A program made the position numbers and the translations under genes. The notes below the pieces were generated by a model, which saw only the letters and a list, made by a program, of their open reading frames with translations, made no database searches and was not told where the DNA came from. 64,000 bases of DNA from Tenrec ecaudatus (taxonomy: Eukaryota > Chordata > Mammalia > Afrosoricida > Tenrecidae): assembly GCF_050624435.1 (NCBI RefSeq), contig NC_134546.1, positions 17,569,001-17,633,000 of the forward strand, given 5' to 3'. Below, piece by piece: positions 15,901-63,241 of the stretch. Position 1 is the first letter of the stretch. The number at the start of each line of letters is the position of its first letter.

Positions 15901-17975
15901 GGTTTGCCCATGTGATTGCAAACATTATGGTTTGCCCATGTGATTGCAGTCCAAACATGTTCGTTGAAAGATACTTGGTCTGAGTTTTGATCATGTGAAG
16001 CAAAAGAGATCTCTAAAGAGACGTACAGGGTGGGCACAGCTTTCTGAAGCAGCATATGCTAACACATACTAGGGGAAAGACTGAGAGGGAAGGCACAGGG
16101 GCTTCCAACATTTCTTGGGGGGAAAAATCCACCATCTTTTCATTCCATTTTCCCACAAACTTTCTGAGACCTTTTCGTTACAATGTTTATGGTTGCGATC
16201 TTCCTGCCACTGGGGTCTCCATCCTCTCTTTACTTGTGGACCATGACCTTCCATAGAGAAACCAGGACCAAGTCTTGGCAGAAGGCAATCCTCTCCTGGT
16301 GGGAAGGCCCACTTAGAACGCAAGCTAGTGGATCAGCAGCTTACATGAAGGCCAGGAAACAGACCACTGGGTTATTTCCATAAAGGGTCTCATGCCTGGT
16401 CAAAGCATGCTTCTGTTCCCTCTTTCAAAATGTCCTCATTAAGTCTGGTACTTATGGGGTCGCCCCTTCCTTTCTCCTTACACCATTATTGGGGTGCTAT
16501 GCCCCCCAGCTGACTCCTATGTTCTTTTTTTAAAGAACACCCCTTACCCCACTCTACCCCCATCACCCTACAGGAGCTCTCCAATCCTTCCGCCTGTGTG
16601 TGCCCCACCCCCTCTTCCACCAGCACATGCTGCCCTCTCCGAAGACCAAACCTACACAATGTCACTGCCTTTTCCCGCAAAAAGTTACAGTCTCCGAAAC
16701 CCACAGGGCCAGGTCTGCACGGTCCTATAGGGTCTCTAGGAGTCAGAATTAACTCCGTGGCAATAAGTATTTTGGTATTATGTAGATCCTGGCTCATTGT
16801 GACCCCTTAGGGCTGAGTAAAGAAAATTTTTTTTTAATTCACTACATTCAAGTCAATGCCAACTCATAGTGACTTCATAGGGCAGGGTGAACCAGAGACT
16901 TAGTAAGGCCTTGTCTTTCTCCAGAGCAGCAGCAGGTAGCTTTGAACAGATGAACTTGCATATTGCAGCCCAATATGTAACCACTGCACCACCGGGCCTT
17001 CTGGCACTGCCTTTTCTCCCTCCGAGTCGGGGATGAGTCGGAGCCACAGACCTGGCCTTGCCTTGCCTGTTGCAGCTCCGCTTGCCGGGCACCTGCCTCG
17101 CCCGCAGGGCCCTTCCGAAGACGAAATGGGAGAAAGGCAGCGGCGTTCGAGGCCGAGCTCAGAACTACTCAAAGCGACCAGCAGAAGGCGCTCAACCACA
17201 GGCCACAGCGCTTTTCCGCGGGGCGCGGGGCGCGCCTGCCGTCTAAGCGGAGCCGGCACTGCGTACCCCGCCCGGGGTCGCGCGGACGCCTGGAGGCATC
17301 CCCGGGCGGGGCGGGCGCTGCCCGTTAGCTTAGAAACAAACCAGGGGGCTGCCGCTAGCCCGCCTTTCTCCCCCGACCCCATTGCTCTGAGGCCCAGATG
17401 CAGACGGCGGGGGCGAGGGGAGAACGGGGTGGAGCGCTCTTGGGGCCCCCAAACCCCAACCAGCCAGAACTCGCCGTGGCGAGATGCGCGCGCAGCTGGT
17501 CCGCGCCGAGTGCGGGTCCAGAGCCGATGCAAGGGAGGCGTTCGCGCACGTCGTCGCGGCCCCGCGGCCCGCGGGGACCCCCGGCCCGGCAGCACGTGCC
17601 TGCAGCTGCGCAGCCCTAGAGGCGACCGGACCACCGTCCCTCCCCGCCCGTCTGGTGACCGGTCGGCGGCCTCGGAGCCCCGAGGGAGGCTGCGCGTGGG
17701 TCCCCCAGGTGCGGCCCAGGTGTCCGGGGACGGCAGGGCCTCACCCGCTCGCGCTCCTTGGCGTTGGCCGCGCGCCGCCGCTCCAGCACCAACTGGAGGC
17801 CCTCGGTGGACGAGTAGCCGCCCGAGGGCAGCCGCTTGAGCCGGCAGATGGCGGCCAGCTGGTGCAGCGGCCCGAACTGCTCCCGCAGTACGTCCTCCAG
17901 CACCTCGGCCTGCGGGGCGCAGAGGAGGGAGGCCAGCGGCTGGCCCGACCCCACAGGCGAGGTCGCTGCGTCCAT
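12739..17975 (-). CDS. FIGLA: FIGLA, oocyte bHLH transcription factor (exons 1-3)
   Basis: FIGLA is a germ-cell nuclear bHLH factor. It pairs with E proteins such as TCF3 on CANNTG E-boxes to switch on zona pellucida and other oocyte genes. The exons are 17,975-17,745, 14,745-14,593 and 12,957-12,739, all phase 0, with AG acceptors and GT donors. Joined, they encode 201 residues. The human protein is 219, so a last exon of about 16-18 codons should follow, and I did not find it. The basic region ([12 protein letters not shown]) ends exon 1 and the helix-loop-helix is in exon 2. The recognised part shows no stop or frameshift. The symbol rests on close similarity over all three exons and on the neighbour CLEC4F. 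Confidence 0.93.
14195..14365 (-). repeat. AfroSINE, antisense, in FIGLA intron 2
   Basis: Read on the minus strand: GGGGTCCTGGTGGCG, a box-B-like centre (ATCAGAAGTTCAAAG) and AACCCACAGGGGGCAG. The 3' tail is truncated or diverged. Confidence 0.85.
14593..14745 (-). CDS. FIGLA: FIGLA exon 2 (helix-loop-helix)
   Basis: 51 codons in phase 0. The acceptor is TTTTCTAG|ATCAAAAAC and the donor is TCTGAG|GTAAAG. It encodes helix 1 ([19 protein letters not shown]), the loop (QSRKPSKVD) and helix 2 ([19 protein letters not shown]), almost identical to human FIGLA. The intron falls between the basic region and helix 1. This exon gives the firmest identification of the gene. Confidence 0.95.
15283..15745 (-). 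repeat. Unclassified dispersed repeat (antisense)
   Basis: The plus-strand start (gactagagaaacaaattcat) is the reverse complement of the end of the repeat at 45,128-45,690 (tggttttgtttctctagaga). The internal text, such as GAAGCATCTCAGC and CATTGGCCATGACCTGATTGACAGG, resembles a repeat common in afrotherian genomes. I cannot tell whether it is an LTR or a DNA-transposon derivative. It lies in FIGLA intron 1. Confidence 0.5.
16128..16168. repeat. Mariner-like MITE arm
   Basis: The motif cattccattttcccacaaac is shared with 36,903-36,922 and related to the arms at 23,945 and 26,570. Only one arm is visible. Confidence 0.4.
16710..17005. repeat. Two AfroSINE pieces in opposite orientation
   Basis: 16,710-16,775 is a plus-strand AfroSINE tail (GGTCCTATAGGGTCTC, then AGTCAGAATTAACTC). 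16,843-17,005 is an antisense, nearly complete copy (CAACTCATAGTGACTTCATAGG ... GCACCACCGGGCC). They lie about 70 bp apart in FIGLA intron 1, just before the CpG island. Such inverted pairs can fold into a hairpin when transcribed. Confidence 0.8.
17745..17975 (-). CDS. FIGLA: FIGLA exon 1 (N-terminus and basic region)
   Basis: 77 codons from ATG at 17,975 to the donor GAGCGG|GTGAGG. This start gives an N-terminus ([10 protein letters not shown]) of the human length. The stretch [17 protein letters not shown] and the block [15 protein letters not shown] are FIGLA signatures. The exon ends in the DNA-contacting basic segment ([13 protein letters not shown]). Confidence 0.95.
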
Positions 17976-50194: not shown

Positions 50195-50345
50195 TCAGGC
50201 CAGCCCCTGCCCCACAGGCTTCTTGCAGACCCATTGGTAGGGTGTGTCACAGTCCATGTCATTCCACTTCTTCTCCACATGGACACAGTCCTCAGTCTGC
50301 CCATTATTATGTTTCCAGTTATCCGGCTGATTCGGACCCCAAAAC
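50195..50345 (-). CDS. CLEC4F: CLEC4F exon 7 (lectin domain, C-terminus)
   Basis: The acceptor TTTTCAG|GTTTTGG joins the preceding GG to give GFWGPNQPDNW. The exon encodes QPD (galactose-type), the later glutamate in GQTEDC, WND and the last cysteines (DCD, WVCKK), then PVGQGLA and TGA at 50,197-50,195. These are the primary Ca2+/sugar-site motifs of C-type lectins, and all are intact. Confidence 0.93.
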
Positions 50346-53300
50346 CTGAAAACCAAAGGGCTTCATTCAGCTAAAGGAAAGGAAGTGGCCATCCCCCCTG
50401 GTGGGACGTATGGAACTAAAGTGACATCAATTCCCAACCCCTTGTGGACAAAGAACTAGGACTCAGAATGCCCTCCGAGTGGTTCGGCTTAGGCCCAGGG
50501 AATGGTAGGGGAGGTGCCCCTCTCAGCCTGGGCCCTCCCCTTTACCCCCACCCAGAATCCTTTCAACTGGAGCCCTTTGCAAATGGGCCTGAGACCGTAA
50601 AAGGGAGTGGGTGGGTGTGGGTTTGTGTGTGTCTGGGAGAGGGGGACACAGGACAGGGAGACTCCTGGTAGCCCCAGCTGCAGGACCTGTCCTGCTGAGG
50701 ATCCTCTAAGACTGGGCCCGGCAGAGCCTCACACTATGCCTAAGTAGACGCACACATGCCTGCCTGCACACATGCAAGCACACACACACAACAGGGCCAC
50801 CCAGGAGGCAGTGCCAGGCAGCAGTGGGCTCACCCTGTACTCTGGGCAGCATTGAACGGTGTCCCATCCACCCAGCGCCAGGAACCCTCTCTGCCCCTGT
50901 CTGTGAGGCCGATCCAGTGGTAAGAGGTGCTCGTTGACATTGTCAGAAATTTCTGTAGAGAAAAGACAGAGTCGCTGTCTGAGGAGCTGGTTCTCCGCGT
51001 GGTGTGAAGGAGGACTCTGGGTGGTTCCTTCCCCAACCCTTCCCTGCAGGGGCCTCAGAGGCCTGAAGCTCACTTCTCTGTCTGCCACAAAGACAGATGC
51101 TCCTAAGTACTGGGTGATCACCTGGCTCTGCGGCCAGATGCCTCGGGCGAAGTCCCCTTTACTCCATGCTCCCTATCCCTGCATAGGATAAGAAGCATGG
51201 CTTGACTAGGAGACACCGTTTCATGGGATGTGCTTTGTGAGGAGCATACCCAGACTCGGGAGAGCCACCGGGGCTGGGCCGTCTAGTTAAAGTGGCAGCA
51301 AATGCTGAGCAGGAGCCTCGGCAGATGATCCACCCAGGATGACCTTACTTTCCTTCGCTGGCCCTCAAACCCACAGGGGTGCAGATGGCCTTCCCAAGAA
51401 CCCTCGTTCTCCCGCTCAATGGCTCCCCATGGCTATGGAATGGCCTGACATCAAGATCAAGATTGTGACTGGAAGAATGCTGAGAGGAAAAGCAGGGGCG
51501 GCCCTGCGCTCCCCAATACTTTAACGTCTCTGCCAAGGCCTCTCTCAGAGGAGAAAGTCCATGATACACCAAGTGCATCAGAAGCGCCCAAGCCCTCATC
51601 AGCTCTGACCTGCTCCCCTGCAGATGTCACCGAAGCCAGGTGGGCTCCCTGGGACACACAGAACTGCTCAGCCCCATGCCAAGACTTCTTATCATCGGAA
51701 AAGTAATACAAATGTCTATTGTAGACCTTCCAGCCGTTCAGGATCAGCTTGAGCAGTTCATCTGGAAAGAGAGGGAACCAGGCCCAAGGTGAGTACAGAA
51801 AGCTGACCTTCATCGCTTCTCTTGGGACTGGCCAGTGCAGTTCACTCCCGTGCAATCCTTCAGACCCAGGTCTCCAGGAGCAAGGCCTGCAGCAGCTGTA
51901 CCCCCTCCCACTCCCCTCTCCCCAGAGTGCAGGAGTGCTAAGGCCTGGGCTCAGCCCTTCCTGGAACACTCCAACCCCACTAGGGTGTCTCCTACTTTCT
52001 GGCCACACCATCCTCGTGTCCAATGCATTGCTTCCACCCTACAGTCCTCTCTACCTCAATTGCCGCCATTTCCTGGGAGTTTGTTTTTTTTCCACCCCAT
52101 GGCCTTGCTCACTTCCTGGCCTTCATATCTCCAGCCTCTTCGGCTGTCCTACACCTACGACCATACCTGGGATGCTGCCGTCCGTCATCTGATCTGCCCC
52201 AACTCACATTTTCCAGATAGCTCATCCTGACAGCACGAGCCCCAATTCCCTTGACGATTTCATTCTTCCCCATCACCCCACCCTTTAAGATAATCTATTC
52301 CAAGGTTCCGGGGAAAGATGAAACTCTCCACTCCTGTTAAGAGTCGGTCTCAGAAACCCACACGGACCATTGGCCATTCCCTAGTACTTGACAAGGTTGG
52401 GCTGTCACATGCTAGTTTTGTACCCTCAAGCGACGTGCAGTCCAGGAAAGAAGGCAGATGTCACAAGGTGTTGAAGATGCATTGCTCTGAAACCATGTGC
52501 ATGTTAGAGTTCAGGCTGGAAGAGAGTACGACCCATTTCATCTGGGCTGGTGGCAGCGCCTAGGAGGGACATTCTAAATGAGATGTTGCCCGAGCTGAGT
52601 CTCAAAAGACAGAGGAAGTTTTCCAAGTGGCCAACCCCAGAAAGATGTTCGAGGCGGGGGAAATAGCAGGCACAGAGACTCACGGGCATGAAACAGCATG
52701 TCACAGACTGATCATTTCAAGTATTAGGGAATGGCCATCTGCTAGGAGATGAGAGATGAACTTGGAGCCGATCACCGACACTACATCCCATGTCAAGGAG
52801 TCTGGATTTTTCTGTGTGAGCACGGGAAGCCCTGAAGAATAGTCATATGTTCTGATTTGCACTGGGAACCAAACAGGAAAAAGGCTATCCTAGTTGAGCC
52901 AGAAATACCAGTCAAAATGCAATTGCTAAGGTCTCAGTGAGAGGTGTTGGGTGTTTCATCGGGGTGCTCAGAGCACGGTACTGGGATCAGCAACAGGAGC
53001 ATCGCCTCAACACTTGGGAGAAATGCAGAGTCCCGGGTCCACCCCAGACCTGCTCAGTCCTAAAGGGTTTCTTAACCCTTTTGAGGGCAAATTATTTCCT
53101 GCTCTGGATGTGTGTGTGTGTGTGTGCACTCGAGCGTGAGAGAGCGAGACCTGTGCTTTCGATAACGGACAGTATTTTGAAGTAACATGGATTTTGATAC
53201 AAGCACTAGAGTGCCATGGTCCCAAAGGCCACTGGAGTTGGTGGGAGTAGGCCCCGGTTCCTTCAGAATCACTGTTACATAGGCCCCGACTAGACGGCAG

Positions 53301-56982: not shown

Positions 56983-59900
56983 TTGTTGTTGTTGTTGACC
57001 ACAGCAAAGAAACTGTTCCCTGCAGAAGAGGAAGTAAGCACAAGTCAGTCCACTTTAACGTCACTCAAGACAGCGGTTCTCAACCTGTGGGTCGCGACAG
57101 TAGCAAAATGACAGTGATGAAGTAGCAACAAAAATAATTTTATGCTTGGGGGGGTCCCCACCACATGAGGAACTTAAAGGCTCGCGGCATTCGCCACCAC
57201 ATGAGGAACTGTCTGAAAGGATCACGGCATAAGGAAGGTTGAGAACCACTGGCTTAAGAAGTATTCCATCCCTGCCAGGGATTGTGAATTTGAGGAGAGG
57301 GTTTGATTCTGTAGGAAGGTGCTATGGGCTGGGAAGACAGACAGACAGATGCCAGCTAGACCTGATGTGTGTGGGGTGGGGTGGGGTGGGGGGATGAAAT
57401 TGTTCATGACAGATTAGTAAGTAAGCACAATTGAGCCTGTGCTTATTTTGTCTGCGGAGTCATCCGACATGGTTCAAGCCTCTTCTCAGGGCGCATTTTG
57501 TCTCCTGAAAACTCCTGTGTCCTGATGCTACAGCCTATACCGGACTCCAGGTCCCAGCCTTCAATGGGGCCAAGACCTCCCTCCTGGGTGCCAGGCAGCC
57601 TGCCACTCAAGTATTCAAGTATCTCCAGAGCCGCCCAGACTCGGCATGTCCCAATCACGCTGCTCTTCTCCTCTCGTCATCCCTTCTAGCCCCGCCCCCG
57701 CCCCCCACTCCATCGTCCCTCAGCCAGAACCCCCCCGCCCCCCGCCCCCCGCATCCTCCTTAAAACCCTGCAGTGGCTCCTCACTTCCAGCAGGATAAAA
57801 CCCAGACCGGTTCTACAGCCACAGTGTCCCACGGCCTTCCAGGCCTGCCTGCCTTTTCAAACGGCACTCACCCACCCATTCCCACGGCCACTGAGTCGAT
57901 GCCAACTCACCGGAACCCACAGGGCCAGTGCTACCCTGTCCTGTAGGGTCTCGGAGATGGGAAACCTTCACAGGGACAGACAACCTCGTCTTTCTTCTGC
58001 AGAACACCTGGTGGAATGTGAACTGCTGACCTCACCGTTAGCATTCCAACACCTCTGCCCAGAGTGGCCTTATATGTCACTGAATTTGGGATTCCCTCCA
58101 CTACCCACACTCCTTCCCAGAGAGGTCCCCTGCTGAGAGCAGCAAATAGACTGAAGGGCCAGAGGGTCCCTGAGCAGGCCATGCTCCCCGGCCCAGCCAC
58201 CCTGCCCTCCACTCACTCTGCGTCCTTTGCAGCTGCTCCAAGGACGCAAAACCCGAGCGCAGTGTCTCCAACTGGTTCTGCTTCTCCTGGATTCGGGTAG
58301 TGAGAGTCCTGGTGTTCTGTAAGTCACCTTGGAGCCTCTGGATCTCAGCATTGGCCTTCTGCAGGCTGCCCCCCAAGGTCTGGACCTGAGTCTTCAAGGC
58401 TGCACCGTCCTGCAGCCCTCGTTTTAAGACCTGTATCTCTTTGTTGGCATTTTTCAAGTTCTCATTTAACACTGGCATCTGAGAATTCAAAGCATTGGCA
58501 ACTTTCAATTCTGCTTTTAATGCCTGGACCTCAGCGTTCATCTGCTTCAGGCTGCTGTTGGCCACTTGGCCCTGGGCCGTGGCCCTCTCCAAATCCGTTC
58601 TCATCACCTGAATCTCACCGCCAGCCCTTTCCAAGTTGCCTTTGAGTACCTGGATCTCAGCACTGGTCTTCTCCAGGCTGCCCCTCACCAAGGTCTGGGT
58701 CTGGGAATTGGCTGCACCTGCGCTCTGCAGCCCTCCCTTCAGCTTCAGGATCTCTGCAGTGGCCCTTTCCAAAGTAGTTCTGAAAGTCTGGCTCTGGGTC
58801 CTTAAGGCCTCGACGCTGTTCAGATCGCCTCTCAGAAGGACGATCTGAGCACTGACATCCTTCAAACTACTGTTTGCCAACAGCGTCTGGGCATTTGCCA
58901 TCTCCAAGCCTGCTTTTAACATCTGAATGTCCGTGCTGGCATTTTCTAAGCCTCTGCTTAGTGTGTGGAGCTCAAGGCTGGTGCTCTCAGAGCTGTTTTT
59001 TAAGAAACTCTGAGTCTGGGAGTTCAGAGCATTTGCCTTTTCCAAATCTCCTTTGAGCCTCTGGATCTCAGCATTGGCCTTCTGCAGGGTGCTCCCCAGG
59101 GGCTGAATCTGAGTCTTCAAGGCTGCACTGTCCTGCAGCCCTCGTTTTAAGACCTGTATCTCTTTGTTGGCATTTTTCAAGTTCTCATTTATCACTGGCA
59201 TCTGAGAATTCAAAGCATTGGCAACTTTCAATTCTGCTTTTAATGCCTGGACCTCAGCGTTTATCTGCTTCAGGCTGCTGTTGGCCATTTGGCCCTGGGC
59301 CGTGGCCCTCTCCAAATCCGTTCTCATCACCTGAATCTCACCGCCAGCCCTTTCCAAGTTGCCTTTGAGTACCTGGATCTCAGCACTGGTCTTCTCCAGG
59401 CTGCCCCTCACCAAGGTCTGGGTCTGGGAATTGGCTGCACCTGCGCTCTGCAGCCCTCCCTTCAGCTTCAGGATCTCTGCAGTGGCCCTTTCCAAAGTAG
59501 TTCTGAAAGTCTGGCTCTGGGTCCTTAAGGCCTCGACGCTGTTCAGATCGCCTCTCAGAAGGATGATCTGAGCACTGACATCCTTCAAACTACTGTTTGC
59601 CAACAGCGTCTGGGCATTTGCCATCTCCAAGCCTGCTTTTAACATCTGAATGTCCGTGCTGGCATTTTCTAAGCCTCTGCTTAGTGTGTGGAGCTCAAGG
59701 CTGGTGCTCTCAGAGCTGCTTTTTAAGAAACTCTGAGTCTGGGAGTTCAGAGCATTTGTCTTTTCCAATTCTCCTTTGAGCCTCTGTATCTCAGCATTGG
59801 CCCCATCCAAAGAGCTCCTTAACTTCTGGGTCTGGACACTCAAAGTACTGGCATCAGTTAGCTCTCCCTTTACCATCTGAATGTCGGCATTGGCGTGTTC

Positions 59901-62900
59901 CAGGTGGCCGCTGAGCATCTGGATCTGAGAACTGACATTGTCCACACTGCACTTCAACATCTGGATCTCCACACGCCAGGTGCTGGTGTTCTCCATCTGA
60001 ACTTTCAACATCTGAAGAGCCTCTTGCACCGCTGCCACCCTAGAAGGGTAGGGACCTGGATGGTGGAAATGGACACAGCTGTCAAAAGGGCACCATTATG
60101 CAGGGAAGTGTTGCATCGTCCAATCAGAGCAGTCTCAAGACTTCCCCCCAAATATGTCATCTACAGAGCCCTGAGTGTGCTTGGCCAGTGGCCTGTGGGT
60201 CCTGGCAGCCTCCCTGGTCCTGGGGGTGGACCACCTGAAACTATGAGTCAAAAAGAGCTGCTTAACACACGTGAGCTAACTAGCAGGATCAAAGGTTTAA
60301 ACTATTTGCCTCCCATAGACTAACCACCCAGAGTCGCGCTGGTAAACAGTAAAGTATTTCTCCACCGTAATTGAACTTGAAAGTAACTTACATAATTTAG
60401 AACTGTGGGCGTTTAATTCCACTCAAATTTCACCATTAAGTGGGTCTTTATGAAAACAGAAACGACATCTCAGTAATTTCCCTGTTTTCAACCTGTCCTA
60501 CATTTGCTTGACAACCATGAGCCCCCTTGATTAATCAGTTACTTCCTAACATGATGCAGAACACACACCTGTAGGTTTTCTGATCCCAGATCCCATGAAA
60601 AACAGAAATGAAACAAAATGAACACCCGTGGCAGAATCACCCTGTTCAGTTGACCCCCATGGCTAAGACAAAGACCCACCACATCCTTCAGGAGAAGCTA
60701 AGCCACTGAGCCAGGATTACACGTGTCCTCGGGGATATTCCAAAGGACAGGGAGCCCTACAGGTCAGTCTGGAGATATGGGAGGCCTGAAGGCAAGGCCT
60801 CGATCACTGTGTAGTCCATAATAAGTACAGCTCCTTCCATATGCATGGGCTTTCCTGCCACCCTCACCGGCAGCGCCCCGATCCTGCTCTATCACCTTTT
60901 GCTCAGTTCATGAGCTATACTCGTCTCAGACATTCATGGTCACCTCCTGATTCCAGCCTCCCTTCAGGAATGGAGACAAGAACCCAAGGGAATAGGGCCC
61001 CTTTCTGGGGGACCCCTTCCCTTATTCCTTGCACCTGGCCAGGATTCAGTCACTGTGCTAGCGTCAAGCCAGGTGGCAAGATCGTCCAGTAGACCTATGG
61101 AACGGAATGGAAATCTATTGCTGATGGCCAGAAACAGATCCGTATACATCTAGACAATTGATGCGCAATAAAATTTCAAAGGAGAGTCAATGGAGAAAGG
61201 ATCATCTTTGCAACAATTGGATATCCATGGGCCAAAAAACAAAAACAAATGTCAAGACAGACATTGTACCATCATCTGAAAATGAACCATCGACCTAAAT
61301 GTAAAACTGAAAACTATAAAATTTCAAAAAGCAAAGTCTGTGGAAACTTGGTCTAGGCACAATCCATAAGAGCAAAGAGAGTGGTAAGTTGGACTTTATC
61401 TACATTGAAATCGTGTCGAGAGACTAGAAGGACAAGGCACAGGCTAATTGAAACATGCGAGTCACAAATCGCATGTCTGACAAACTTGTGTCCAGAATAC
61501 ATTAAGAATTCTCAACATTTACTCATAAAAACTGAATCTTTGCAAACAACCTGCCTGATGAAATGCAAGCAAGAGACCAACAATCGTAGTGGAAGATCCA
61601 CTTCACCAAAAAGTATTGACAGGTGACAAAGAAGCTCATGAAAAAAAATACTCAACATACTTAAGTAAATGCTAATTAATATCACGCACCAACTGGAATA
61701 TCTAAGCATGTTTTTGATGACCTAGGCAAGTGTTAGTGAAGCAGTGGAGGTACTAGAACACGGCCAGACAGTGCAAATGGTACCATCCCTCTGGAAGTTG
61801 TGCATTAGCGGGGGAATGGAGAAACTGATTGTGATGTATCCATTCTGTGGAATACAAGACAAAACCATTGCTATTGAGTGGGCTCCAACTCATAGCGACC
61901 CTGTAGGACAGAGTGGAACTGTGCCATTGGGTTTCCAAGGCTGTCCTCTTTGTGGAAGCGGGCTGCCACACCTTTCTTCCGCAGAGCGCCTGGTGGGTTT
62001 GAATTTCTGGTCTTTCAGGTGGCAGCCAAGTGCATCTCTAGGGCTTTTCACATAAGGAAACGCCTACGTTTATTGATACACCCAACAATGGGGATAAAAC
62101 CCGAACTAGTTTGCAGGCTGAAAGAGGTCATACACCAAACAAACTCCTCCTGTGTCTGTCCTTTCCTTAGAAACCTTCAGAAAGTCCAAAGAAATCTACA
62201 GTGACAGGAAGTAGGTCAGTGGTTGTTTGTGGGTGAAGCAAGGAAAGGCGGGGAGCTTTTAGAGTCACAACAAAGAATGAATTATGAAATAATTCATTAT
62301 GAATAGGTCCACTACCGGGGTTGTGGTGATGGTGTCGCCGTGTCAATGCTTGGCACATGGTACATCTTTCGGTACATACGTTGTATTATGTGTCAGTTAC
62401 TCACTAAAGCTGCTTGAGGAACCCAGGTGGCTTAGCGGTTTATGAACTGGACTGCTAACATCAAGATCATCAGTTCAAACCCACCAGCTGTGCCACAAGA
62501 GAAAGAAAGATGTCGCTTCCGTGAAGCTTCAGTCTTGGGAACCCTCCAGTCACTCTGGGTCAGAATCAACCCAATAGCAGCGGGTTGTGACTTAGAGTTG
62601 TTTTTTGGGAAAAAAAAAAAAAAAGATTCTGTGAGATAAGTGGGAGCCATTCAAGGGTCTGAGGATGATGGGAGAGGATGGGCCTGGGGTTTGAACATCC
62701 TAGTGCCCCCACTCCCTCCCGGCCCTCACCCTTCATGGCTACTCACTTTCTGGGTCCCCAGAGCCGGTGATGTTGTCTCCCCCAACGGCAGCTTGAAAGG
62801 GTTGGAGTGAAGGATCCTCAGCTCCTGAGTGATGTAGAACTGAAACACAGCACCACACCCCCATCAGCACAAAGGTCCACTCTTAAGCCTCGGGGGACCA

Positions 62901-63241
62901 GCTGCCCCACCCCCCATTAGGAGTTGGCATCAAGACCTCCTTCAGAGTCTTGCCCTCAGGGAGCTTCGGTTCTGGAGAGGATAACCTGTGGATAGGGATC
63001 TCTGTTTGGGCCCAGAAAAAGTCTGGGCTAGAGGCAGAGTTACCTTCTGGGCTTCTCCGGGTATCTTGGTGGCTTTGGGGCGTGGGGGAAGAACAAGGAT
63101 GGTTTGGGTCATGTAGGAGCTTACCGACAACAAAGAGAGCCGCAAGGAAGAAGACCAAGGTCATAGCCACAAAGGCCAGCATGGCCTGGGCAAGTCTCGG
63201 CACCTTGGGGGCTGCAGGGGTTGCTGCTGCTGACTCCATAC
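50195..63241 (-). CDS. CLEC4F: CLEC4F, Kupffer-cell type II C-type lectin (exons 2-7)
   Basis: CLEC4F is a type II membrane receptor, known in rodents as a Kupffer-cell marker that binds galactose/GalNAc-type sugars. Exons by number: 2 (63,241-63,125), 3 (62,839-62,747), 4 (60,055-58,217), 5 (51,761-51,610), 6 (50,952-50,834) and 7 (50,345-50,195). Splice phases agree throughout. Together they give about 822 residues, against about 589 in human. The domain order is: membrane span, short linker, a very long coiled-coil stalk (all exon 4), then the C-type lectin domain. The excess over human matches a 241-codon stalk duplication. The initiator exon with the cytoplasmic tail was not found and probably lies past 64,000. 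No frameshift or stop was seen. Confidence 0.95.
50834..50952 (-). CDS. CLEC4F: CLEC4F exon 6 (lectin domain, middle)
   Basis: Acceptor TCTCTACAG|AAATTTC, donor ACAGG|GTGAGC. It encodes KFLTMSTSTSYHWIGL, then TDRGREGSWRWVDGTPF and NAAQSTG. WIGL and the W-W pair are conserved core residues of the fold. It is close to human CLEC4F over the whole exon. Confidence 0.93.
51610..51761 (-). CDS. CLEC4F: CLEC4F exon 5 (neck end and lectin domain start)
   Basis: Acceptor CTTTCCAG|ATGAACTG, donor GAGCAG|GTCAGA. After completing the codon of exon 4 it encodes NELLKLILNGWKVYNRHL, then YYFSDDKKSWHGAEQFC and VSQGAHLASVTSAGEQ. The YYF, W..AE.FC and HLASV landmarks identify the domain. A longer open frame overlaps it but runs into intron sequence at both ends. 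Confidence 0.94.
52310..52375 (+). repeat. AfroSINE-like fragment
   Basis: Contains GATGAAACTCTCCACTCC, TTAAGAGTCGGTCTCAGAAAC, then CCCACACGG. Only the central segment of the SINE is recognisable. Confidence 0.55.
52420..53365. other. CLEC4F intron 4, no other feature
   Basis: Intronic DNA with no exon signal. A (TG)n run is at 53,107-53,127. Confidence 0.4.
53368..53450. mobile_element. Mariner-like palindromic MITE, diverged
   Basis: The arm AAGGCTTTCAAAAAGCTCCTGG and the far arm ACAATTTTTGGAAGTCCCC match in inverted order, with an extra AACTTTTTGAAATC between. The family is that of 26,088. Confidence 0.5.
53600..53795 (-). repeat. AfroSINE, antisense
   Basis: TCAATGCCATGGAGTGAGGAC at the tail, TTAGCAGCCCAGCGAGTCAGC and GTGCCACCATGGCCAGGGG at the head. 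Located in CLEC4F intron 4. Confidence 0.8.
54028..54490 (+). repeat. RTE LINE, 3' end
   Basis: The same tail as at 1-435 and 4,374: actttggacacgttgtcggg at 54,361, GCAGGGAGAATCCGTCTCACC before it and CAGCACAGTGGGCTCAGACATG after. In CLEC4F intron 4. Confidence 0.75.
54735..54905 (+). repeat. AfroSINE
   Basis: GGGCTGCTAACCAGCAGGTC, AGTGGTTCAAGCTCACC and tail TCAAGTCGACTGCAGTGAGT. Confidence 0.85.
55025..55215 (-). repeat. AfroSINE, antisense
   Basis: AAACCCACTGCCACTGTGCC at the tail, TATAGGAGAGATGGCACTGCC, then GATGCTAACCAACCTTCGGG at the head side. Confidence 0.8.
55345..55500 (+). repeat. AfroSINE
   Basis: CGTGGCTGCTAACTGCAAGG, AGTGGCTCTGCGGGAG, CCACGGGGCAGTCCTGCTCTG. Oriented opposite to the copy at 55,025, about 130 bp away. 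Confidence 0.8.
55500..56945. other. CLEC4F intron 4, no other feature
   Basis: Pyrimidine-rich, unassigned intronic DNA. No exon with plausible flanking splice sites and reading-frame similarity was found. Confidence 0.4.
56951..56997. repeat. (TG)n and (GTT)n microsatellite
   Basis: About 16 TG units followed by four GTT units, in CLEC4F intron 4. Confidence 0.95.
57071..57251. mobile_element. SPIN-like hAT MITE with internal duplication
   Basis: The ends are cagcggttctcaacc and ggttgagaaccactg. Flanks ACTCAAGA and GCTTAAGA agree at 6 of 8 positions. The piece CCACCACATGAGGAACT occurs twice (57,157 and 57,195), a small internal duplication absent from other copies. Confidence 0.9.
57885..58065 (-). 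repeat. AfroSINE, antisense, next to exon 4
   Basis: GGCCACTGAGTCGATGCCAAC, CCTGTAGGGTCTCGGAG and GAACTGCTGACCTCACCG. It lies about 150 bp downstream of the CLEC4F exon 4 donor. Confidence 0.9.
58217..60055 (-). CDS. CLEC4F: CLEC4F exon 4 (coiled-coil stalk)
   Basis: 1,839 bp without a stop, encoding 612 codons of heptad-like stalk. It starts SPYPSRVAAVQEALQ after the acceptor CACCATCCAG|GTCCC (chosen because it alone keeps phase with exon 3). It ends LEQLQRTQ with donor CGCAGA|GTGAGT. Repeated text of the form ALNSQTQ, SAEIQVLKG and LERA fills it, with several NxS/T sites such as NASTD and NSSLKD. The frame runs on beyond the donor to 58,101, but that part is intron. Human CLEC4F has the same exon without the duplication. 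Confidence 0.95.
58340..59062 (-). repeat. CLEC4F: Stalk duplication, C-terminal copy (723 bp)
   Basis: It matches 59,063-59,785 at an exact offset of 723 bp (241 codons). For example, a 79-codon antisense frame at 58,566-58,805 is identical to one at 59,289-59,528. About ten residue differences are visible, such as SSSES/NSSES, QIILL/QIVLL and VINEN/VLNEN. Confidence 0.95.
59063..59785 (-). repeat. CLEC4F: Stalk duplication, N-terminal copy (723 bp)
   Basis: The upstream (N-terminal) copy of the unit above. The junction lies within the LQKANAEIQRLKGDLEKA text. An older, weaker repeat of the same pattern continues to 59,830, so the exact break is uncertain by a few tens of bases. Confidence 0.95.
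60060..61085. other. CLEC4F intron 3, no other feature
   Basis: No exon, RNA gene or named repeat recognised. Confidence 0.4.
61088..61862 (+). repeat. L1 ORF2 3' fragment
   Basis: GTAGACCTATGGAACGGAATGG, aatggagaaaggatcatctt, CACCAACTGGAATATC and ATGTATCCATTCTGTGGAATAC are successive parts of the L1 ORF2 3' end. All frames are interrupted. An AfroSINE is inserted at 61,866, and the L1 text appears to resume at 62,046 (GGAAACGCCTACG). Confidence 0.75.
61866..62045 (-). repeat. AfroSINE, antisense, nested in L1
   Basis: GCTATTGAGTGGGCTCCAAC, CATAGCGACCCTGTAGGAC, TTGAATTTCTGGTC and the head GGCAGCCAAGTGCATCTCTAGGG. Confidence 0.9.
62418..62625 (+). repeat. AfroSINE with poly(A)
   Basis: GAGGAACCCAGGTGGCTTAG, TCATCAGTTCAAACCCACC, GGTCAGAATCAACCCAATAGC and a run of A at 62,610-62,625. 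In CLEC4F intron 3. Confidence 0.9.
62747..62839 (-). CDS. CLEC4F: CLEC4F exon 3 (membrane-proximal linker)
   Basis: 93 bp in phase 1. Acceptor TGTTTCAG|TTCTAC, donor CAGAAA|GTGAGT. It encodes VLHHSGAEDPSLQPFQAAV then GGDNITGSGDPE. GDNITG, with an NxT site, is shared with human CLEC4F. Confidence 0.9.
63125..63241 (-). CDS. CLEC4F: CLEC4F exon 2 (transmembrane segment)
   Basis: 117 bp. Acceptor CTCTGCAG|GTATGG, donor TTGTCG|GTAAGC. It encodes MESAAATPAAPKVPRLAQAM, then the membrane span LAFVAMTLVFFLAALFVV. APK.PRL.QA and LVF..ALFVV match human CLEC4F. The ATG here is probably internal: in human a cytoplasmic exon with FCTDNQC precedes it. Confidence 0.9.

Follow-up and report, generated by a model that had tools for sequence, protein, structure and literature searches.

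Neck length in the C-type lectin DC-SIGNR has already been the subject of debate. CLEC4M alleles in people carry 4 to 9 neck repeats of 69 bp (PMC3261175), and the necks of DC-SIGN and DC-SIGNR are built of 23-residue units, are tetrameric, and form proline-linked four-helix segments (PMC2971551). For CLEC4F of other mammals, a published account describes seven exons, with the cytoplasmic, membrane, spacer, and neck parts taking one exon each and the head three; a trimeric protein in rodents and bovines, whose neck is helical and extended; a tandem order of CLEC4F and langerin in the species examined; and a human gene that reportedly encodes no functional receptor (PMC6422238). Our search of the literature returned no publication on CLEC4F together with tenrec, which we do not take to mean that none is in print.

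Within a 64,000-nucleotide stretch of the Tenrec ecaudatus genome (positions 17,569,001 to 17,633,000 of NC_134546.1, referred to here as the window), 241 of exon 4's 371 neck codons of CLEC4F are duplicated. We give a probability of roughly 80% to the reading that this is a real, probably recent, in-frame 241-codon duplication of the CLEC4F neck, made by one unequal homologous exchange between sub-repeats. As in DC-SIGN and DC-SIGNR/CLEC4M, the neck length of a C-type lectin has been altered by gain or loss of whole repeats inside one exon (PMC3261175). Unlike in DC-SIGNR, with its 23-residue units and tetramer (PMC2971551), the change here involves one 241-residue block that runs across many sub-units, a trimer would be expected, and the neck is not known to be polymorphic in length. 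The 23-residue unit of the DC-SIGNR type was not found in the CLEC4F neck, where the lags were 14, 31, and 105 and where the 25 top lags listed did not include 23. The neck-length change of DC-SIGNR/CLEC4M is of the same general kind, but the present one concerns a different lectin, a far larger unit, and a breakpoint that is still legible.

Table 1. Features of the tenrec CLEC4F locus, in window coordinates unless otherwise marked
Feature	Position	Strand	Remarks
CLEC4F exon 1	64091-64016 (extended window coordinates)	-	16 bp beyond window
CLEC4F exon 2	63125..63241	-	transmembrane segment
CLEC4F exon 3	62747..62839	-	spacer with sequon NIT
CLEC4F exon 4	58217..60055	-	whole coiled-coil neck, 1839 bp, phase-1 introns on both sides
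CLEC4F exon 5	51610..51761	-	start of C-type lectin domain
CLEC4F exon 6	50834..50952	-	lectin domain (WIGL)
CLEC4F exon 7	50195..50345	-	QPD and WND motifs, stop codon, acceptor AG present
Duplicated unit, copy 1	59064..59786	-	membrane-proximal, 723 bp, counted from crossover block
Duplicated unit, copy 2	58341..59063	-	head-proximal, 723 bp
Crossover block A	59778..59786	-	N-terminal outer boundary, within sub-repeat encoding NAEIQRL
Crossover block B	59055..59063	-	chimeric junction
Crossover block C	58332..58340	-	C-terminal outer boundary

We assigned the gene to CLEC4F because its predicted lectin head best matches a CLEC4F chain, 6jjj_A, among the solved sequences (E = 1.2e-65, the best of 42 with E of 1e-20 or below) and because the exon plan and the tandem order with langerin agree. 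The model has seven coding exons with GT-AG introns and an open frame of 848 residues, and it appears intact (Table 1); the neck coincides with exon 4 and the head with exons 5 to 7. Lengthening of the protein had been proposed in the first-pass annotation, at ~822 residues plus exon 1, and the modelled total with exon 1 comes to 848. By comparison with human CLEC4F, which has 589 residues, this protein has a neck that a tandem duplicate makes 241 residues longer. The human gene is a poor functional yardstick, being reported as non-functional (PMC6422238); unlike it, the tenrec gene has kept the acceptor AG of the last exon. The seven-exon plan, the heptad neck, and the galactose-type head otherwise resemble those described for CLEC4F of other mammals (PMC6422238). 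QPD and WND of the head align with those of 6jjj_A, so that the galactose-type motifs are kept, and the head matches Pfam Lectin_C (E = 6.9e-28). Eleven sequons are present in the 848-residue model, one of them within the predicted cytoplasmic part; at residue 449, in copy 2, a serine-to-asparagine difference creates the sequon NSS, which copy 1 is without.

Upstream of CLEC4F, on the same minus strand, lie the exons of a langerin-like (CD207) gene, in which EPN and WND motifs are present (71310-66083, extended coordinates). Langerin is the neighboring paralogue and has a related coiled-coil neck; the only two solved sequences that the CLEC4F neck matched at E up to 0.001 were langerin chains. 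Unlike CLEC4F here, langerin has a much shorter neck and the mannose-type EPN motif, and no similar neck duplication was seen in the neighboring langerin-like copy. In Pfam, the neck matched 43 families at E up to 1, some of them passing the cut-offs, with HMMR_N at the top of the best 25 (7.4e-14); these assorted coiled-coil families were taken as a sign of generic coiled coil, and kinship with any of them was rejected.

The duplicated units stand head to tail inside exon 4, adjacent, in frame, and without a stop codon, as the first-pass annotation had proposed from an exact offset of 723 bp; the tandem pair that it placed at 58340..59785 was found with measured limits of 58341-59786. The copies differ at 14 of 723 nucleotides (98.1% identity), which affects 13 codons and changes 12 of the 241 residues; the resulting protein identity of 95.0% bears out the earlier estimate of about 95%. 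Self-identity at offset 723 was 80-100% per 30-bp bin from ~58330 to 59079 and lower outside, and an ungapped repeat search returned one family with two 300-bp copies, likewise spaced by 723. Tandem Repeats Finder did not report an array in exon 4, because its longest period is 500. When one copy was removed from the exon, the longest repeated exact word was only 15 nt (copy 1 kept) or 25 nt (copy 2 kept), which excludes a chance origin of the units.

A longer neck may hold the predicted galactose-type head farther from the cell. On perfect-coil arithmetic the extra 241 residues amount to 35.8 nm and the whole neck to 90.9 nm; because three prolines lie within the array (residues 382 and 414 in copy 1, residue 623 in copy 2), these values are upper estimates and a straight, continuous coil is doubtful. 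The ~35 nm gain suggested in the first-pass annotation therefore holds as arithmetic for a perfect coil and is an upper estimate. By analogy with rodent and bovine CLEC4F (PMC6422238), we expect the tenrec protein to be trimeric and its neck to be helical and extended. The lengthened rod, expression of the gene, and any effect on reach or on clearance of the glycocalyx are inferred. The change could also be neutral or mildly harmful, possibly polymorphic or housed in a poorly expressed gene, and there would then be no functional longer receptor; we regard this as possible though not favored: the prolines in the array agree with it, as does the pattern of change between the copies (12 nonsynonymous and 2 synonymous differences), which fits the neutral expectation (P = 0.37), and CLEC4F is reported to have been lost in humans and some monkeys (PMC6422238), but the frame, the splice sites, and the sugar-site motifs have all been preserved. 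With 14 differences, the comparison of the copies gave no departure from neutrality and no sign of positive selection or strong constraint. Should the longer form prove to be fixed and expressed, its comparison with a single-unit form would offer a direct test of whether neck length tunes the reach of a lectin.

The boundaries of the units point to how the duplication may have arisen. A sub-repeat encoding NAEIQRL occurs at three places, the outer boundaries A and C and the junction B, exactly 723 bp apart, and a 9-bp block within it is identical at all three. Junction B is a chimera of A and C that switches parent inside that block. Of the 33 sites that distinguish A from C in the 60 bases leading up to the block on the left, B agrees with C at 30; of the 38 such sites in the 66 bases to its right, B agrees with A at 36. 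B departs from its expected parent at the other 3 left and 2 right sites, and at 5 more it has a base unlike the one that A and C share, so later change or patchy conversion must be added to the exchange model. The chimeric junction thus lies between homologous sub-repeats, the pattern looked for in intragenic unequal crossing-over. In the exon reduced to a single unit, A paired with C outscored every other ungapped self-match when copy 1 was kept (28 of 30 bp; 24 versus 20 for the runner-up); when copy 2 was kept, the pair was still at the top, by a small lead (27 versus 26). In both reconstructions A and C hold the sole exact repeat of at least 14 nt (at most 15 exact bp on the copy-1 evidence). 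All of the six best self-match offsets listed for each reconstruction were multiples of three.

We hypothesize that one unequal (non-allelic) homologous exchange took place between two NAEIQRL-encoding sub-repeats 723 bp apart; judged from the sequence, exchange between A and C was probably the mechanism. Such an exchange would join one half-unit to its equivalent and leave the reading frame in place, and its outcome would be a predicted trimeric receptor with an intact galactose-type head and a neck of ~612 instead of 371 residues. Frame and unit order would be kept because the top self-matches sit at offsets divisible by three and because unit order carries the coiled-coil pattern. Template switching or a microhomology-mediated event during replication, in place of meiotic unequal crossing-over, is a rather unlikely origin that nevertheless deserves weight, since the exact block common to the three boundaries is only 9 bp and the A/C match of at most 15 exact bp (copy-1 evidence) is short for classical homologous exchange; against it, the surrounding 30 bp are identical at 28 positions, and the exon has no better-matching pair than A and C. 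A single-unit ancestor for the proposed exchange is tentatively suggested by human CLEC4F, which has 589 residues and a single unit, with the parental sub-repeats 241 residues apart; its neck gave leading lags of 105 and 241, the same as here.

The internal periodicity of the neck is compatible with exchange of this kind. In the single-copy neck, a super-repeat at a lag of 105 residues scored 1.05, versus 0.04 in the best of 200 shuffles, and lags of 31 and 14 were also found; at the DNA level, identity was 47.0% at a lag of 315, while lags 30-699 averaged 25.8%. This 105-residue (315-bp) super-repeat is older, its protein identity being ~32% over the 210 positions compared. Motif starts along the neck were spaced by 14, 31, 46, 28, 31, 32, 14, 28, 31, and 31 residues, where 46 is read, with the help of the lag-105 alignment, as one unit (32 + 14) that the motif pattern missed. 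The neck therefore consists of a 105-residue super-repeat that is itself made up of ~31-residue units. Since 241 equals 2 x 105 + 31, mispairing between units preserves frame and unit order.

The first-pass annotation had pointed out that 241 leaves a remainder of 3 on division by 7 and that copy 2 would thus sit in a shifted heptad phase. The arithmetic is right, but a problem specific to the junction mostly dissolves: the spacings at the junction, 31 followed by 46, are each seen in the native neck as well, so the remainder of 3 is what a single 31-residue unit of that neck already leaves. We accordingly rejected a break in phase at the junction. The hydrophobic period of the neck is 3.49. 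Scores of our own making, which are crude and do not amount to a validated coiled-coil predictor, placed 69% of 28-residue neck windows above the 95% level of shuffles. On the same crude scale, heptad window scores at the junction (0.24, 0.45, 0.51, 0.45, and 0.40, versus a shuffled mean of 0.17) were similar to the scores at the two outer boundaries, which ranged over 0.25-0.53 and 0.30-0.58. A register model built on these scores put phase jumps near residues 374, 405, and 436 at penalties of 3 and 4, resembling the native run at 615, 646, and 677; at penalties of 5 and 6 the third jump moved to 457, and the N-terminal boundary showed jumps at 164 or 166 and at 209.

On a more tentative level, the CLEC4F neck might be a self-mispairing module, in which, thanks to the super-repeat, a single exchange could add or remove tens of nanometers of receptor length with frame and coil order kept. 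Neck length would then be evolvable and perhaps variable within populations, the rod would reach up to ~91 nm here, and the same sub-repeats could form a standing hotspot in other mammals, a suggestion that we consider doubtful. The tenrec gene offers a single large step of receptor-neck elongation whose breakpoint can still be read, and it shows how a long coiled coil can grow with frame and unit order kept. It also makes 723-bp length alleles a simple genotyping target in CLEC4F of other mammals.

Total divergence of the copies is 1.94% (95% limits, 1.06-3.25%) and synonymous divergence is 1.25% (2 of 159.5 sites; limits, 0.15-4.5%). If rates of 2-4e-9 per site per year are assumed, the duplication is probably a few million years old (~2-5 Myr). 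The differences are clustered: 10 of the 14 fall in the outer 200 of the 723 nt (P = 0.0008, with 100-nt margins chosen after seeing the data), the longest difference-free gap is 276 nt (P = 0.018; 20,000 simulations), and the outer parts of the units differ by 5.0% versus 0.8% in the center. This clustering near the ends means that the middle may have been homogenized and the event may be older. An older duplication, common to a wider group of relatives and homogenized in its middle by gene conversion, would account for the clustering and the long central gap, but it is improbable given the low overall and synonymous divergence, and even the outer parts date to only ~6-12 Myr.

A false tandem copy assembled from one unit or from two haplotypes is very improbable, because the copies, with 14 differences, are not a single unit read a second time, biological exchange would leave just such a chimeric junction at the best self-match of the exon, the locus lies within an 88.3-Mb contig with zero N in the window and the next 20 kb, and the whole-exon DNA has one place in the genome (among the best candidates, which were the ones scored). 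A simple assembly loop or false copy thus appears unlikely, and of the two possibilities left side by side in the first-pass annotation, lineage-specific remodelling is the most likely and assembly error is made unlikely by the sequence pattern (14 differences and the chimeric junction).

The window also contains other elements. A short element at 57071-57251 has inverted ends, CAGYGGTTCTCAACC, a pattern matched 7 times with at most 1 mismatch in the window versus 0 times in 100 shuffles; it resembles the SPIN-type hAT transposons. SINE-core matches with at most 3 mismatches were found at 16740, 41652, 43784, and 57886 (n = 4 versus 0 in 100 shuffles); the core is of the Afrotheria type, in keeping with a tenrec genome. 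At ~17765, on the minus strand, lies a basic helix-loop-helix-like fragment, possibly of FIGLA, the neighbor of CLEC4F.
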